Shown here in pieces: positions 49,294 through 55,890 of a stretch of DNA of 64,000 bases. The stretch covers positions 1 to 64,000 of the forward strand of contig JAFDYX010000025.1 in the NCBI GenBank assembly GCA_018267215.1, written 5' to 3'. The notes under the pieces were generated by a model. The model ran no database searches. It was not told the DNA's origin and saw nothing but the letters and a program-made list of their open reading frames with translations. Every line of letters begins with the position of its first letter. The stretch's first letter is position 1. The translations under genes were made by a program, and so were the position numbers. This DNA is from Bacteroidota bacterium (GTDB taxonomy: Bacteria; Bacteroidota; Bacteroidia; Cytophagales; Cyclobacteriaceae).

Positions 49294-49842
49294 TTATTTG
49301 TACAAATCGAAATCGAGATAGCCTTCAGCCGCTCTTCTCGGCCCACGCTCCACATAAATATTTCTGTCTTGCGGTGCCCATGTAGCCAGTCCATCCACAT
49401 AGCGATTGAACATACAGAATGCGGCAGCGATTAACACCGTATCGTGGATTTCAATATCTGTTGCACCTAATGATTTAGCTTTTTCAATTTGCTCAGGCTT
49501 TACATGCTTGCCGCTTTTCTGAACACTTGCCGCGATTGACAACAATGCTTTCAGCTTGTCGGAGAGATCTGTTGATTCAAAATTTTTCTTTACCGAATCA
49601 ATATAATCTATGCTACACTGCAAATAATGCTGGGCAATTCCTCCATGTGTATTTTGGCAGTAGAAACAATCGTTGAGCGATGATACATAAGTTGCAATCA
49701 ACTCCCGCTCTCCGCGGGAAAGAGAGTTTTCACTTCGCAGTAGAACTTCGGCTAACTCATTCAGTGGCTTAGCTGTCTCCGGTCTGAAAGCCATCGGCCC
49801 GCGAATACCGGGAAGCCCTTCAGGTAAATTGATGTGTGCCAT
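49294..49842 (-). CDS. AhpD-like peroxidase-related protein, paralogue 1
   Basis: A 182-residue protein of the carboxymuconolactone decarboxylase/AhpD fold. All four residues of the AhpD catalytic network are present with AhpD spacing: E47, C59, C62 and H66 (GERELIA, CFYCQNTH). By family it would reduce peroxides or similar substrates through the C-x2-C dithiol. It is the last gene of a five-gene minus-strand operon with two paralogues, a TonB receptor and an MFS transporter. The three paralogues share the N-terminal PGI motif (LPGIRG in this copy). Confidence 0.88.
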   Translation of the reverse strand: MAHINLPEGLPGIRGPMAFRPETAKPLNELAEVLLRSENSLSRGERELIATYVSSLNDCFYCQNTHGGIAQHYLQCSIDYIDSVKKNFESTDLSDKLKALLSIAASVQKSGKHVKPEQIEKAKSLGATDIEIHDTVLIAAAFCMFNRYVDGLATWAPQDRNIYVERGPRRAAEGYLDFDLYK

Positions 49843-49862: not shown

Positions 49863-50408
49863 TTATGATTTTGTTGGGAGAACATATCCATTTTCTCCCA
49901 TTCGTACGCCCATTTCTTCGTATGCTTTGGGGTCTGTGGGTGTGAAACTGGCGAGGCCATCTACATAACGGTTGAACATACTAAAGGTAGCTGCGATCAG
50001 AACTGTATCATGAATGTCGCGATCGCCAGCTCCGTGTTTGCGAGCCTCTTCCACATCTTGTGGCAACACGTTCTTTCCGTTGATCTGAACTTTGCCGGCA
50101 ATAGTAAGCAATGCTTTCAACTTGTTGCTGATGGGTGCTGACTGGTAATCATCCAGTACAATATCAACAACATGCTTTTTGTCTTTAAAAAGATAGCGGG
50201 CGGCAGCAGCATGGCTGCTCATGCAAAACATACATTCGTTGCGGGAGGAAACATACGCGGCAATCAATTCGCGCTCGGCTTCGCTGAGGGGCGAATCGCC
50301 CCGCAACAAAACCTGCGCGAGTTCATATAAATATTGTCCGGATTCCGGACGAAACATTACCAGGCTTCTGATGCCGGGAATCCCTTCGGTAACTTGAATA
50401 TGAGCCAT
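49863..50408 (-). CDS. AhpD-like peroxidase-related protein, paralogue 2
   Basis: A 181-residue paralogue of the gene that follows it 20 bp later. E47, C59, C62 and H66 are conserved (AERELIA, CMFCMSSH). A C-terminal half with EEARKHGAGDRDIHDTVLIA and FNRYVDGLAS is shared by all three copies. It follows the MFS gene by 14 bp. Different residues between the two cysteines (MF here, FY and TF in the others) hint at distinct substrates or partners. Confidence 0.88.
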   Translation of the reverse strand: MAHIQVTEGIPGIRSLVMFRPESGQYLYELAQVLLRGDSPLSEAERELIAAYVSSRNECMFCMSSHAAAARYLFKDKKHVVDIVLDDYQSAPISNKLKALLTIAGKVQINGKNVLPQDVEEARKHGAGDRDIHDTVLIAATFSMFNRYVDGLASFTPTDPKAYEEMGVRMGENGYVLPTKS

Positions 50409-50422
50409 AGCAGATGATGGTT

Positions 50423-51658
50423 TTAGATTGATGGTTTACGATTAGCTATTATGATAAAAATGAACCCGATAAGAAATACAAACGAAAACAAAAAAAGCGA
50501 ACGTCCATACCCGCCCAAGGTTGTTACCAATGCCCCGACAAAAAAGACGGCAACTACTGTAAAGATTCTGCCGATATTAAAACACAAGCCTGTGGCGGTA
50601 GCTCGGATGGCAACAGGGAAAAGAAGGGGGATGTAAACCGAAAGCGTACCTTGGCTGATGCCAAACAAAAATGCCAGCAGCGCGATTTCTATCAGCGTGA
50701 AAACAGAGAATGAGGTGTTACCAATAAACAACACAAATGAAAAAATAAAACATCCGGCAAAGCAAATGAGCATGGTCTTGCGCATGCCAAGTACATTGCT
50801 TACCCATCCGGACGCAAAGCCTCCGCTCAAGCCTCCGATGCCAAGCAGCATCATACCTAAGCTGCGTTCTCTTTGCCCGTCTGAGTTTGTAACAATACTT
50901 TGTACCCATGTGGGCAGCCATGAAAAGATAGCCCATAGCCCAATCAACATAGAACCGAAGATGATGATACCGCTGACAAGCGGAGCTTTGTAATCGCTCA
51001 ACACGACTTGCTCTTTGTTAGAATGAATACGGGTTTCTTTCCATTTTTCAGATTCCTTTAAAATCCAAAATAAAATAATGCCAAGCAGGAAGGGCACGGC
51101 TCCAATCATAAACCCCTGTCGCCAATCGGATATAATAAAATTGACAACACCCGAAGAAAAAACTCCGATGGGGAAACCGGTAGATAACAAGCCGATAAAT
51201 ACAGCACGTGTAGCGTGTGGCCAAACCTCTGATAGCAACGTTGTATTGACAACGAGCACACCGCCCACACCAAAGCCACAGAAGAATTGGAATACAAAAA
51301 TCAACTCCAAGGAAGGCGCTATGCTTTTTAGAAAAGTGAAGAGCCCATACATACTTACAGCCAGTGCCAATGCTACGGCTCTTCCGATCCTGTCACTGAT
51401 CAACCCCCACATCAAACCGCCCATGGCCCATCCGGCAAAATACAGCGCATTGATGTAGGCACTCATTTTGCCAAGCCCATCACCTGATACTGATCCTTGC
51501 AAGTCTTTTACGACCACCGGAAGATAAACTGACATTAAAGTGGAAGCCATGCCGGCCAGCACATTGCCCAAGAAACAAACGGCAAATAAAAGCCACAAGT
51601 AGCTGCTGATTTTTTTGGAATCGGAATCTGTTAGTGTAATGCCAATGGTGTTGTTCAT
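50423..51658 (-). CDS. MFS transporter
   Basis: A 411-residue major facilitator with twelve predicted helices. The motif-A-like loop is GLMWGLISDRIGRAVALALA between TM2 and TM3, and the central cytoplasmic loop is short and charged (KESEKWKETRIHSNKE). General resemblance is to the aromatic acid/sugar-phosphate-type uptake groups, but the substrate is unknown. It sits between the TonB receptor and paralogue 2 with gaps of 28 and 14 bp, suggesting that it carries the receptor's substrate across the inner membrane. Confidence 0.88.
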   Translation of the reverse strand: MNNTIGITLTDSDSKKISSYLWLLFAVCFLGNVLAGMASTLMSVYLPVVVKDLQGSVSGDGLGKMSAYINALYFAGWAMGGLMWGLISDRIGRAVALALAVSMYGLFTFLKSIAPSLELIFVFQFFCGFGVGGVLVVNTTLLSEVWPHATRAVFIGLLSTGFPIGVFSSGVVNFIISDWRQGFMIGAVPFLLGIILFWILKESEKWKETRIHSNKEQVVLSDYKAPLVSGIIIFGSMLIGLWAIFSWLPTWVQSIVTNSDGQRERSLGMMLLGIGGLSGGFASGWVSNVLGMRKTMLICFAGCFIFSFVLFIGNTSFSVFTLIEIALLAFLFGISQGTLSVYIPLLFPVAIRATATGLCFNIGRIFTVVAVFFVGALVTTLGGYGRSLFLFSFVFLIGFIFIIIANRKPSI

Positions 51659-51686: not shown

Positions 51687-54455
51687 CTATCTCAGCAAAT
51701 CGTCAAATGTGATACTTAAATAATAGATTGCGCCAATTGATGGCGAGCCGTAAGCCTGATAAACCTGATTGTTGAGCAAGTTGTTTGCTCCGAGCTTAAC
51801 CACCGATTTGACGGAGGCAAGTTTATAACTTAGTTGGGCATCTATCATCGAGTAAGCATTAATTCTTCCCGGCATTAACTGGTTGAATGAAGATGTCCAG
51901 TCAAAGGCATCTTGCCAGCGCCAAGCTACATTAAACCCAATTTGTTTAGTGACATGGCTGTTTCCAAAAGTAAGTGTGGTTCTGTATTTCGGAGTGTTGA
52001 ATGCCGGTATGTCGTTGGGGTTGGCATTGAGTAAATTGAAATCAGCCCAAGTGGCATTTGCGCCCAACGAATAATTTTTGGGCAACAAATAAGTAAGACC
52101 AACGGTAGCACCTTGCGAAGTTACGCGGTCGCCTGCGTTAGTGTAGAGTTGGTACAAATGGGTATTTCCGTTGAGTAAGTCATTGGCTGCTGCCGGATTG
52201 ATTTTACCATCACTTCCCAGTACGGGGCTTTGTGGCTGCATAACCACACGGTTTAAAATAAAATCATTATAGCTGCTGAAATAGTAGTTTACATCAACCA
52301 ATAATTTCTCGGCAAACAAACCTTTATAGCCAACCTCAAAAGTTTGCACTCGTTCAGGTTTAATGTAGGGAACGTTTGATTTTACAAGTAAGTCTTTTGT
52401 TTGGTTGATGGCATCTGAAGGAGTAGCACCACCGGCCACGGCCGCCTGAAATGCTCCGAAGAACGGACCGAGCGAGGTAGAAGTAAACGAATTTTCATAT
52501 ACATTCATGCCTTTGCTGTTATCGGGCACCCCACCTAAGATAGTAATCACACCGGCATTGAGTTTGATATATTGGTCAGTAGGCGTTGGATTGCGAAAAC
52601 CGGTTTGAAAAGAAGTTCGAAAATAATGATTAGCGCCTACGGTATAGATGGCTGCTACCCGTGGTGTAAACCTGCCGTTGAAATTTTGGTTTTTATCAAA
52701 ACGGATAGAACCCATCAACTTCAATTTATCTTGAAGCAAACGCTTGGAAGCTTGCACGAAAGCCCCACCTTCTTTAATGGTGATGGGGTGGGTAGCATCG
52801 TCCAGCAGGGTGCCCATGGTATTCATATCATACATTCTAAAATTACCACCAGCCAATAAGTCAATTACTTTTACCTGTCGGCTGAAGTCGTACTGACCCT
52901 CCACGTGGTAAAGTTTACTTTTACTGATAATGCCCGCACCGTTTAAACCTGTAGTAGCGATCAGTCTGTTTTTTTGAGCTTCAAAATCTGCCGTTCCCGG
53001 CAAAAAGCGTCCCTGATCTGCAAAAGCACGAGCTGCGTTATTATCGGCAGCTGTTACACCGCTGATGCTTCCGTTATAGGCATCGGCATATCGGGTGAAC
53101 CACATGTTGTCTGCTTGGCTGGCACTTACTACGTTTCCGCTGAGGTCTTGTACCCAAGTGCGGTTAATCAATTGACCCAAACTCCGTGCGTTATACGATT
53201 GCCCCGTGCTCTCTAAGTTGGCATAGGCACGAACGAAGTAATTGCTGCCGCGCGCTTCAAGACGATGCTGCTCGAAAATAAAATTATTTAGTTGAAAGCG
53301 ATTGCTGCCGGTATATGCAGCCCGTCCTTGGTTGTAGTTGTATTGATAGATCAACTCCATGTTGCTGCTCACTTTGTAGTGGAGGGCTCCATTTAATTTT
53401 AAACTGTAGGAGTTGTAGTTCATCAAGTCGCGTTCTTCATACCCCGTTCTAGACACATTACCGATACCACTGAGGTTGCGCACGATTTCATCGCCATAAA
53501 TATTAAGCGCATCGCGCCCCGGATTGTTATCACCTCGTTGTGCAGGTGGCGTTCCGGCAGCAACGTCCGTATAGTTGGTGGCATACCAATCCAAACCCGA
53601 AAAATAGGAAGCATTTATTTTGAAAGCGAAGCGGTTGTTCACGGCTTTCGCATAGCGGATCGCCATATCATACAGCGGTGTGGGGCTGGCATATTTTTCA
53701 TTGAAATGGTTCATGCCCGATTTTATCTGTGCACTCAGCCCTTGGTATTCAAACGGATTTTTGGTGCGCATCATCAAGACACCGTTGAATGCCACCGGGC
53801 CATATAATGCAGATGCTGAGCCTGGAATTAACTCAGCGCTTTCCATATCTAAGTCAGACGAGCCAAATAAATTTCCGGGAGCAAAGTTTAAACCGGGTGT
53901 TTGGTTGTCCACCCCATCTACTAATTGAAGGAAGCGCTGATTGCCGGTGCTGTTAAAACCACGTGTGTTGATTTGTTTAAAAGTTAAACCACTGGTTACC
54001 ATCTCTACTGATTTAATGTTTTGCAAGCCCTCATAAAAATTGATCGAAGGCGTTTCGCGCATGGCTTTTGAGTCCATCTTTTCAATGCTCACGGGAGATT
54101 GCAAAACATTTTCCTCCACACGCGAAGCAGACACCACCATTTCATCCAGCAACTGGCTTTGTTGAACAAGAGAAATTGTAACAGACTGGTTGGCACTTGT
54201 TATTTCTATTTCTTGTTTTTGAAAACCGATAGATGAGATGACAATAATAAATTGCGGCTGGATGGATGTTGTTAAGGTAAACTTGCCGGCAGCACCCGAG
54301 GTTGTGCCAATCATCTTTCCTTTAACGGCAATAGTGGCACCGGCAATAGGTTCATTAGTTTTAGAATCGATAATAGTTCCTGTAACAGAGGTTAGCTGCG
54401 CAAGAGATAAAAACGTAGTCGAAAGAAAAATGCAGAGGAGTAAAATTTTTTTCAT
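51687..54455 (-). CDS. TonB-dependent receptor with carboxypeptidase-like regulatory domain
   Basis: A 922-residue outer-membrane receptor. It has a signal peptide (KKILLLCIFLSTTFLSLAQ), an N-terminal CarboxypepD_reg-like domain (about 22-105, VTGTIIDSKTNEPIAGATIAV), a plug domain (about 115-235, KQINTRGFNSTGNQRFLQLV, ALYGPVAFNGVLMM) and a 22-strand barrel ending in the usual terminal strand (GAIYYLSITFDDLLR). There is no SusD partner, so it is more like vitamin, siderophore or small-organic receptors than a polysaccharide SusC. It lies 21 bp after paralogue 3 and 28 bp before the MFS gene in the same operon. Confidence 0.93.
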   Translation of the reverse strand: MKKILLLCIFLSTTFLSLAQLTSVTGTIIDSKTNEPIAGATIAVKGKMIGTTSGAAGKFTLTTSIQPQFIIVISSIGFQKQEIEITSANQSVTISLVQQSQLLDEMVVSASRVEENVLQSPVSIEKMDSKAMRETPSINFYEGLQNIKSVEMVTSGLTFKQINTRGFNSTGNQRFLQLVDGVDNQTPGLNFAPGNLFGSSDLDMESAELIPGSASALYGPVAFNGVLMMRTKNPFEYQGLSAQIKSGMNHFNEKYASPTPLYDMAIRYAKAVNNRFAFKINASYFSGLDWYATNYTDVAAGTPPAQRGDNNPGRDALNIYGDEIVRNLSGIGNVSRTGYEERDLMNYNSYSLKLNGALHYKVSSNMELIYQYNYNQGRAAYTGSNRFQLNNFIFEQHRLEARGSNYFVRAYANLESTGQSYNARSLGQLINRTWVQDLSGNVVSASQADNMWFTRYADAYNGSISGVTAADNNAARAFADQGRFLPGTADFEAQKNRLIATTGLNGAGIISKSKLYHVEGQYDFSRQVKVIDLLAGGNFRMYDMNTMGTLLDDATHPITIKEGGAFVQASKRLLQDKLKLMGSIRFDKNQNFNGRFTPRVAAIYTVGANHYFRTSFQTGFRNPTPTDQYIKLNAGVITILGGVPDNSKGMNVYENSFTSTSLGPFFGAFQAAVAGGATPSDAINQTKDLLVKSNVPYIKPERVQTFEVGYKGLFAEKLLVDVNYYFSSYNDFILNRVVMQPQSPVLGSDGKINPAAANDLLNGNTHLYQLYTNAGDRVTSQGATVGLTYLLPKNYSLGANATWADFNLLNANPNDIPAFNTPKYRTTLTFGNSHVTKQIGFNVAWRWQDAFDWTSSFNQLMPGRINAYSMIDAQLSYKLASVKSVVKLGANNLLNNQVYQAYGSPSIGAIYYLSITFDDLLR

Positions 54456-54476: not shown

Positions 54477-55034
54477 TTACTTTTTTAAATGATCGTAGCC
54501 TTGGGGCAATCGCATGTAGCCTTTGGAAATCCGCTCGGCTAACCCTTTGTAAAATGCAGGATCGGCAGGCGCTACAGTCGAGAGCCCGTCAACATAGCGA
54601 TTGTATAATGCGAAGAGTGCAGCAATCAAAACGGTGTCGTGTATTTCAATATCAGTAGCACCTTCTTCTTTCGCTTTTTGGATAGATTGTGCTGTAACCG
54701 CCTTACCGCTTTTCTGTACCTGCGAGGCAATAGTTAATAGAGCTTTCATCTTTTCGCTTACCGGTGCGGTAGCAATATTTTTTTTCACTGCCTGAGAGGT
54801 GTCGCATTCACCTAACAATTTGTCGGCTGCTGCCGTATGAGCGTTGGTACAGAATGTACACTCGTTGCCATTAGAAACAACGGTGGCAATCAATTCACGC
54901 TCGCCAGCTGTTAATGTAGAAGGCCCGCGAAGGAGAAATTGAGTGAGTTTGCGTATGGGCTCGGCTGTATCTTTTTTGTATTCGAGCAGACCGGTGATGC
55001 CGGGCAAATGCTCTTCCAATGGTATGTGTGGCAT
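54477..55034 (-). CDS. AhpD-like peroxidase-related protein, paralogue 3 (first gene of operon)
   Basis: A 185-residue protein, the first gene of the operon. E47, C59, C62 and H66 match the AhpD network (GERELIA, CTFCTNAH). It shares the LPGI N-terminus and the DIEHDTVLIAALF-type C-terminal half (here DIEIHDTVLIA) with its two paralogues. It is preceded by a leader with two tandem conserved hairpins (55056-55170), ending 21 nt before this ATG, so the whole operon may be controlled by that RNA. Confidence 0.88.
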   Translation of the reverse strand: MPHIPLEEHLPGITGLLEYKKDTAEPIRKLTQFLLRGPSTLTAGERELIATVVSNGNECTFCTNAHTAAADKLLGECDTSQAVKKNIATAPVSEKMKALLTIASQVQKSGKAVTAQSIQKAKEEGATDIEIHDTVLIAALFALYNRYVDGLSTVAPADPAFYKGLAERISKGYMRLPQGYDHLKK

Positions 55035-55055
55035 GTGATGGTGCTTTGGATTAAA

Positions 55056-55170
55056 GAAGCAGCGCCCGTCCCGAACCCTAATAACGAGAGCAGGCTGCCT
55101 GCTTCTTTTTACATCAACTGTCAGAGATCATGAGATGAGCCGATCCGAACCCTAATACGGATACTGGCTC
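55056..55170 (-). ncRNA. Tandem structured leader RNA, candidate riboswitch-like element
   Basis: Two hairpins on the minus strand share one plan: GCC, three unpaired nt, a 5-bp stem, loop (U)UAUUAGGGUU, the stem's partner, one unpaired C, then GGC. The distal copy is 55137-55170 (outer stem GAGCC/GGCTC, inner ATCCG/CGGAT). The proximal copy is 55056-55105 (outermost stem GAAGCAG/CTGCTTC, inner UCUCG/CGGGA). In the proximal inner stem one pair is G-U on this strand but would be A-C on the other, which supports minus-strand transcription. The loop sequence is conserved while both stems differ yet still pair. The 3' hairpin ends 21 nt before the AhpD-like ATG. I know no described class with this loop. 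Confidence 0.6.
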
Positions 55171-55344: not shown

Positions 55345-55890
55345 TCAGCAGTGGTTATTAGGAGGAGGAGTAAGAACAGGATAATCGTGATTGAGCGTTT
55401 TTGAAGCATTGGCTTCAAATGATTGGTTGATACTGATGATTGTCCGCGCAGATAACTCTATTTCTTCGATCACCGGATTGTAATCTTTTAATAGACCTGT
55501 TAATGTTTTTGCGTTTGAGTTGGTGGCCGGAGATTGACTGGTAGATTGCTTCACTAAGTCAGAGAGAATTTTTACGGCTTTTTTCTGGCCATCGTTGCGC
55601 AGGCAGACTACATACACCGTATCATTTTCATATTTCTGCTGCACCAGCTTATAGAATTCACCATTATATTGAAAGTCGCCCGATACACGTTCAAAGCCTT
55701 TTTCAATTGGATAGGGTAGTGTAAGCGGAATTTTAATAGTAACAGTTTCAGATTGATCGTAGGCATCATTTTCGATTGCCCGATTAACTTTGTTGTTGGC
55801 GCTGTGCATCATCCCTACATAAATTCCATAGTATCCTATTACATTAAACAGGAAAACCCAAACGAGAAACAAGGAGATAATTTTTTTCAC
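55345..55890 (-). CDS. Unknown membrane-anchored protein
   Basis: I do not recognise this 181-residue protein. It has one N-terminal hydrophobic helix (about 4-27, IISLFLVWVFLFNVIGYYGIYVG) and then a beta/alpha periplasmic-type region (ETVTIKIPLTLPYPIEKGFERV..., YKLVQQKYENDTVYVVCL). A Ser/Asn-rich linker and a C-terminal helix (IEEIELSARTIISINQSF) follow, and the chain ends in PPPNNHC with a terminal cysteine. It is on the same strand as the AhpD/TonB operon and upstream of the leader RNA; whether it belongs to the same transcription unit is unclear. Confidence 0.6.
   Translation of the reverse strand: MKKIISLFLVWVFLFNVIGYYGIYVGMMHSANNKVNRAIENDAYDQSETVTIKIPLTLPYPIEKGFERVSGDFQYNGEFYKLVQQKYENDTVYVVCLRNDGQKKAVKILSDLVKQSTSQSPATNSNAKTLTGLLKDYNPVIEEIELSARTIISINQSFEANASKTLNHDYPVLTPPPNNHC

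Follow-up and report, generated by a model that had tools for sequence, protein, structure and literature searches.

A tandem-hairpin leader RNA of an AhpD-TonB-MFS operon in Bacteroidota that looks like an undescribed control element

In Csr/Rsm targets, several leader hairpins present a short purine-rich loop motif, GGA, to a protein. The ANTAR-target RNA is a dual-hairpin antiterminator with hexanucleotide loops that have A at position 1 and G at position 4; according to the excerpted source, its hairpins are read by a protein and a terminator lies just downstream (PMC3369931). Guanidine-II (mini-ykkC) RNAs have ACGR loops, described in excerpts of PMC9300104 as contacting each other through two GC pairs, and the pan motif consists, in the passages of PMC2864571 cited here, of simple, mostly tandem hairpins that precede pantothenate genes and are thought to bind a dimeric protein. 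Here we describe two hairpins in the leader of a minus-strand operon with the gene order AhpD-TonB-MFS-AhpD-AhpD, located in a 64,000-nucleotide stretch of a Cyclobacteriaceae genome (assembly GCA_018267215.1, contig JAFDYX010000025.1, positions 1 to 64,000; hereafter the window). This tandem-hairpin leader RNA matches no Rfam family and looks like an undescribed RNA control element.

Like Csr/Rsm targets, the leader has several hairpins with a short loop motif, but the loop is not GGA, and CsrA/RsmA was found in none of nine motif-bearing genomes searched, with a control that was positive in 3 of 14 genomes. Two small leader hairpins with conserved terminal-loop residues are shared with the ANTAR-target RNA as excerpted in PMC3369931, whereas hexanucleotide loops with A1 and G4 in both hairpins are lacking: the loops measure 10 and 11 nucleotides (7 to about 17 in relatives), carry UUWGGGU(U) and occur in one to five copies. 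ANTAR proteins were detected in none of the nine motif genomes, but in none of 14 control genomes either. Guanidine-II RNAs, in the excerpts cited, likewise place a pair of GC-rich hairpins that share one short conserved loop ahead of a transporter gene (PMC9300104); here, however, the loops of the two hairpins are UUWGGGU(U) instead of ACGR, are not self-complementary and vary in copy number. Simple, mostly tandem hairpins ahead of a single kind of operon are common to the leader and the pan motif, but what is conserved in the latter, in the passages cited, is a pair of bulged A residues in the stem and not the loop (PMC2864571). No Rfam (release 15) family matched at gathering score in the whole window, and with E values up to 10 allowed on 401 bases of the region there were four matches, the best at E 0.18 and all far below gathering scores, in keeping with the initial annotation, in which no familiar class was recognised. 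In the open-licence literature we found no paper on a Chryseolinea regulatory RNA, a UUAGGG-loop riboswitch or a tandem hairpin-loop riboswitch associated with TonB in Bacteroidetes.

Two tandem hairpins with the same loop

The hairpins occupy positions 55137-55170 and 55053-55108 of the minus strand, 19-136 nucleotides upstream of the first-gene start at 55034, and the array sits between a short protein gene (55345-55890) and the operon's first AhpD-like gene. Hairpin 1 (55137..55170), seen in the sequence, in folding and in the pairing test described below, has the stem GAGCC-AGU-AUCCG / CGGAU-C-GGCUC and a 10-nucleotide loop, UAUUAGGGUU, with the conserved octamer TTAGGGTT at 55148..55155. 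Hairpin 2 (55053..55108), seen in sequence and folding, is bipartite, with a lower stem AAAGAAGCAG/CUGCUUCUUU, an upper part for which GCCUG-C-UCUCG / CGGGA-CGGGC with a one-base bulge is the better pairing, and an 11-nucleotide loop, UUAUUAGGGUU, that contains the same octamer at 55074..55081. In both hairpins the octamer makes up the last eight loop bases. The linker (55109..55136) ends in GTTGATGTAAAAAG, which by eye resembles the sequence preceding the last hairpin in three relatives (G178, G094 and G312; genomes and loci are numbered G and L, and G000 is the window's genome).

The predicted fold contains both hairpins (-49.3 kcal/mol, z -2.95), and 2 of 200 shuffled sequences fold as well. 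The two tandem minus-strand hairpins with a common loop reported in the initial annotation, made from the sequence alone, are confirmed. The layout GCC...C-GGC that it gave for both copies holds for copy 1, whereas the 3' side of copy 2 reads C-GGGC. The proposed alternation with a GCAGG/CCTGC hairpin is disfavoured, at -15.5 versus -27.6 kcal/mol in the window, and that hairpin is weaker by eye in relatives. The exact 13-mer TATTAGGGTTCGG occurs twice in the window's genome, both times in this leader; among 148 genomes nine have it, outside the window once each and by eye without a comparable hairpin. A mimic of the anticodon arm of tRNA-Pro was also considered, since the 7-nucleotide loop UU(A/U)GGGU on a 5-base-pair stem in L043 is similar to the tRNA-Pro anticodon loop, but loops of 8 to about 17 nucleotides elsewhere argue against it; no tRNA genes were found in six loci scanned.

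Conservation and distribution of the loop motif

When heptamers were ranked by Poisson enrichment in the 500 nucleotides upstream of 80 AhpD homologues (39,638 bases; L042 was dropped as near-identical to L041), the first two ranks were taken by TTAGGGT (11 occurrences versus 1.16 expected) and TTTGGGT (17 versus 3.38). Over the same regions TTNGGGT occurs 34 times on the sense and 7 times on the antisense strand, with 9.9 expected. TTWGGGT is present in 14 of the 80 regions, ten with hairpins and four without (L063, L097, L106 and L117); two of the 11 TTAGGGT (L063, L097) and two of the 17 TTTGGGT (L106, L117) lie outside motif leaders, and one occurrence (L044) overlaps a stem. Hairpins around TTTGGGT in L063 were rejected, being antisense within a gene.

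For the pairing test, every TT(A/T)GGGT in the last 420 nucleotides of ten non-redundant leaders was taken regardless of pairing, G094 and G219 being left out, here and in the G-U count, as near-duplicates. The test is strongly positive for the set: a stem score of at least 14 was found around 15 of 26 occurrences, compared with 3.2% of 2204 control positions and 3.7% when the flanks were shuffled, and with the line at 12 the figures are 17 of 26 against 6.9% of control positions. In 19 non-redundant hairpins, 22 G-U pairs stand against 8 A-C oppositions (p 0.008), as expected for RNA of the operon's sense strand. The fixed loop on stems that differ and still pair, a pattern first noticed in the two window copies, is thus borne out in relatives. 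In an alignment of 14 hand-picked hairpins (A3), which with its loops padded with N is illustrative and no proof, both sides change in all seven pairs, a count also attained by 129 of 500 shuffles, and no shuffle attains the covariation score. Homologous leaders combine covarying stems with conserved unpaired positions, as structured cis-regulatory RNAs do. Comparison of leader sequences shows the hairpins, the fixed loop, the sense-strand RNA signature and the position in the leader, and the hairpins are very probably a conserved RNA feature of this leader.

Orthologues of the first AhpD gene (E <= 1e-60) are present in 32 of the 390 genomes of the family set, and in a search of all 32 leaders for TTNGGGT the motif was found in the same leader in 12 genomes, with one to five loops each. 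Of the outcomes that the initial annotation had named as refuting, two did not occur: homologues with compensatory stem changes exist, and there is no Rfam match. The TTAGGGT variant occurs in five genomes (G000, G178, G094, G359 and G312) and the TTTGGGTT variant in seven (G395, G093, G015, G219, G238, G136 and G132). Within a leader, the clear hairpins carry the same A/U variant, as though a single partner recognised every copy. Loop length ranges from 7 to about 17 nucleotides around the fixed octamer, which adjoins the 3' strand or is separated from it by a few bases, and several leaders have one clear hairpin only. Records with the same leader sequence include several Bacteroidetes metagenome-assembled genomes, a Chryseolinea metagenome-assembled genome (L046), Chryseolinea sp. 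H1M3-3 (L049), Chryseolinea serpens (L071), Chryseolinea lacunae (L085) and Chryseosolibacter indicus (L105); the loci L043, L044, L045, L046, L071, L085 and L105 correspond to genomes G359, G312, G355, G093, G238, G136 and G132, respectively.

A five-hairpin array was seen in L049, where the hairpins each have TTTGGGTT in the loop on the stems CAACTGACA(..)TGTCAGTTG, GTAGTGAG(..)CTCATTGC, GTCCATCAGCA(..)TGCTGATGGAC, CCGCTGG(..)CCAGTGG and GGTCCGCTGG(..)CCAGCGGATC, and where the operon, as read from translations of its open reading frames (ORFs), has the identical gene order. L043 has four hairpins and a fifth TTAGGGT without one; two of its hairpins are near-identical and differ by A-U versus G-C (GGCACCAG..CUGGUGUC and GGCGCCAG..CUGGCGUC). 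Three octamers occur in L105, two of them in clear hairpins, and three in L046, together with a variant loop TTTGGGC. The leaders of L071 and L085 have an extra hairpin, GCG-UUUGGUU-GCGC, about 60 nucleotides before the main octamer and with one G fewer in the loop, perhaps a decayed copy. In the motif-free leader of L045 the start codon follows closely after a stretch that by eye resembles the pre-hairpin sequence of G178 and G312, from which the promoter would lie upstream of the hairpins.

A loop that is single-stranded and fixed, with an A/U variant that agrees between the clear copies of a leader, would also suit pairing with a trans-encoded small RNA. The hairpin loop begins with a YUNR-type U-turn, and such turns are common in antisense target loops. 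By eye, five of ten non-redundant motif leaders (L044, L046, L071, L085 and L105), or five of nine if G395 is left out, have UACCC, which can pair with the loop GGGU, after the last hairpin and ahead of the start codon, in a comparison made post hoc; among 70 other homologues, 5 have ACCC within 60 nucleotides of the start. In family leaders that lack the motif, however, ACCC is present in 4 of 17 cases, so the excess of UACCC is small, and the word is missing in the window, G178, G359, G015 and G395. We regard a small-RNA partner as unlikely.

Searches for further copies and a different array in Chitinophagales

A covariance model of the hairpin, R1, was run on 58 relatives, with strict filters and 136 candidates scored per genome, and on the 12 motif genomes, where the best 150 first-look candidates were scored per genome. 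In the motif genomes R1 gave 52 matches, nine of them in AhpD leaders, and picked up the known leader in 7 of the 12, missing G178, G094, G359, G132 and G395. The remaining 43 matches are not in AhpD leaders; of the 24 that were inspected, 22 fall within ORFs and the other two, L133 and L177, between convergent genes. From the run on 58 relatives 20 loci were inspected, and 14 lie in ORFs; of the six that do not (L121, L128, L133, L134, L137 and L140), L134 and L140 are single AT-rich copies before a same-strand ORF, and L137 is the only one among L121, L128, L133, L134 and L137 with a second TTWGGGT word nearby, at -281. The ORF test counts open frames of at least 70-90 codons on either strand and is lenient, since a true leader match (L173) was placed inside a 102-codon opposite-strand frame. 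No second target and no dispersed copies were recognised among the loci inspected in the 58 relatives and 12 motif genomes with a model that misses the known leader in 5 of 12. The paired pattern TTTGGGTT-N66..96-TTTGGGTT matches in 185 of 390 genomes and, among the matches listed, resembles the reversed control except for the AhpD leaders of G015 and G132.

Two loci met in these searches may be recorded. R1's best match in the window's own genome, L133 (G000:C25:51033-51060), is a terminator-like hairpin, CCGCAAAC-TTTTTAGGG-TTTGCGG, between convergent genes. Overlapping matches at G143:C7:8364-8665 look like tandem units of about 100 base pairs starting with TTTGGGTTAAT and are, as far as seen, unrelated to the operon.

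Chance, or a mobile repeat resembling repetitive extragenic palindromes or miniature inverted-repeat transposable elements (REP/MITE-like), could account for the copy number of one to five and for the duplicated hairpin pair in L043. Against this stand the occurrence in the same operon's leader in 12 genomes, stems that are mostly unrelated between copies, the excess of sense over antisense TTNGGGT given above, and the lack of recognised dispersed copies, within the weak reach of the model. This explanation, already disfavoured, is very improbable.

A screen for repeated words in hairpins, applied to the intergenic parts of 4.5 kb upstream of the 80 AhpD homologues, returned 12 loci: three by the window motif (L044, L049 and L105), one (L046) by an adjacent word, four by a different hairpin (L050, L051, L053 and L090) and four by unrelated words (L043, L068, L079 and L094). 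The other hairpin, GGCGUUGUAAUUCUUUACNGACGCC-like with the apex UAAUUCUUUA, has 15 matches in eight Chitinophagales/Chitinophagaceae records, all 15 on the operon's sense strand, and precedes the same operon in one to four copies per leader. On the plus strand of these records it lies at 6189-6707 in L050, 6468-6618 in L051, 109-133 and 2586-2740 in L052, 8811-8960 in L053, 8950 in L055, 8931 in L073, 8715-8827 in L090 and 6092 in L101, and a sixteenth, variant copy was found in L052, where the sense strand alone was searched. The shorter word TAATTCNTTA is found at other places in the 80 loci as well, with totals of 25 occurrences on the plus and 10 on the minus strand. Stems again change on both sides (GGCGUUGUAAUUCUUUACAAUGCC versus GGCGUCAUAAUUCUUUAUGAUGCC). 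The arrays of L050 and L051 stand in front of an ORF of 729 or 739 codons that comes before AhpD and by eye is TonB-receptor-like in L050; in L052 one copy is followed by a long open frame that by eye looks TonB-like, and other copies lie ahead of AhpD. With at most one mismatch, the pattern has 18 matches in seven of the eight genomes (that of L090 excluded) versus none for the reversed control; 13 of the 18 are operon leaders and the other five are by eye not such hairpins.

At least seven T were counted in the 14 bases following 12 of the 15 Chitinophagales hairpins, which suggests that these may also terminate transcription. In the window, hairpin 2 is followed by CTTCTTTAATCC, and the corresponding hairpin ends in CTTTTTTAATA in G178 and G094. 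Together these tails would fit hairpins that act as terminators or attenuators, or that terminate the upstream gene, with no specific partner involved. A T run after a GC-rich hairpin is, however, only partly present at hairpin 2, absent at hairpin 1 and at most other copies, and variable among relatives (by eye), and a terminator would not need a fixed loop sequence. Such an explanation is improbable for the window-type array.

The Chitinophagales array bears as well on a tandem mini-riboswitch, in which each hairpin would be a tiny aptamer whose loop binds the operon's substrate or product, by analogy with guanidine-II. In seven genomes, this operon is the one place where the Chitinophagales hairpin was found, and within the limited reach of the model searches no second target turned up for the window-type hairpin. 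The operon has two transport genes, and distinct riboswitch classes for one ligand look like what is seen here, a single operon preceded by a different repeated hairpin in each of two orders; the excerpts on guanidine-II (PMC9300104) give a precedent for two plain hairpins with a short conserved loop. The variation of loop length and copy number speaks against an aptamer, as do the failure to notice a conserved internal loop or junction and the leaders with one clear hairpin. We consider a mini-riboswitch, which is the chief competitor of the reading favoured below, possible but doubtful. An equally doubtful extension is that of modular leader arrays, in which one short hairpin would be the whole sensor and copy number would tune the response. 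Two unrelated classes, with UUWGGGUU here and the apex UAAUUCUUUA in Chitinophagales, would then have arisen separately for the same operon and signal, either as two new mini-riboswitch classes for one ligand or as targets of an operon-encoded AhpD-like oligomer reading its own leader.

The operon, candidate partners and proposed mechanism

The first gene of the operon (54477..55034, minus strand, as are all genes of the window listed here) encodes an AhpD-like protein of the CMD family, peroxidase-related. It is followed by a TonB-dependent outer-membrane receptor (51687..54455), for which the Pfam barrel and plug models score over the cut-off and no NCBIfam model does, by an MFS transporter (50423..51658), and by the second (49863..50408) and third (49294..49842) AhpD-like genes. 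The nearest model to the MFS transporter is an aromatic-acid symporter subfamily, with a score below the cut-off, and its best solved relatives are SLC22 organic-ion transporters. The short protein gene upstream of the array (55345..55890) has no Pfam or NCBIfam matches; by eye, an ORF of L049 (7907-8449) resembles it at an equivalent position. The first AhpD-like protein has seven matches on contigs C16, C17 and C26 of the window's genome, the closest outside the operon being G000:C16:238679-239218 with 62% identity, a locus without TATTAGGG. In front of five paralogous AhpD loci (L244-L248) the motif was not found.

The reading that we favour, tentatively and just short of an even chance, is a leader RNA that acts in cis and offers its repeated loops to a factor acting in trans, most likely an RNA-binding protein. 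At the 5' end of the AhpD-TonB-MFS-AhpD-AhpD transcript, this leader would fold into a hairpin array, of two hairpins here and one to five in relatives, whose stems would serve solely to present an invariant single-stranded octamer, UUAGGGUU or UUUGGGUU (or UUAGGGU), located at the 3' end of the loop or close to it. The factor would recognise this octamer, several copies would give avidity, and binding near the start codon would alter translation or early termination of the operon. Free stems, free loop length and a fixed octamer are the behaviour of protein-read loops, and the variable loop length and copy number are no less compatible with recognition by protein or RNA than with a small-molecule aptamer. 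The second, different repeated hairpin before the same operon in Chitinophagales is counted in favour of this reading too. We infer that the leader is transcribed and regulates the operon, that its partner is a protein and one dedicated to this operon, and at which level and in which direction control might act.

As candidate partners, RRM-type RNA-binding proteins are encoded in nine of nine motif genomes searched. The RRM protein RbpB of Bacteroides thetaiotaomicron is a related case; as reported in the excerpted source, however, its 41-nucleotide motif lies in FopS small RNAs and not in repeated leader hairpins, and no link to the present loop is shown there (PMC11697453).

Several results weigh against the favoured reading. 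RRM proteins are also encoded in six of seven genomes without the motif, and 20 of the 32 orthologous leaders lack TTNGGGT. The window's own copies score 13 and 11.8 in the pairing test, under the line of 14, and 7 of the 26 occurrences score below 11 (one each in G178, G359, G312, G093, G015, G132 and G395). Counted on just the four relatives that are easiest to align, hairpin 2 shows weak covariation: its score is matched by 62 of 500 shuffles, 95% of cells pair, a share equalled by 29 of 500 shuffles, and two of these leaders have an upper-stem mismatch. Finally, the lack of a second target is weak evidence, because R1 misses known leaders and only the best candidates were scored.

The array is a compact candidate element in a little-charted part of Bacteroidota, with a fixed 8-nucleotide loop, free stems and one to five copies before one operon. 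Once its partner is found, it would provide a new RNA-protein recognition pair or a new class of mini-riboswitch, and in the latter case it would reveal the substrate of the uptake operon. Since a different array precedes the same operon in another order, convergence would be directly testable.
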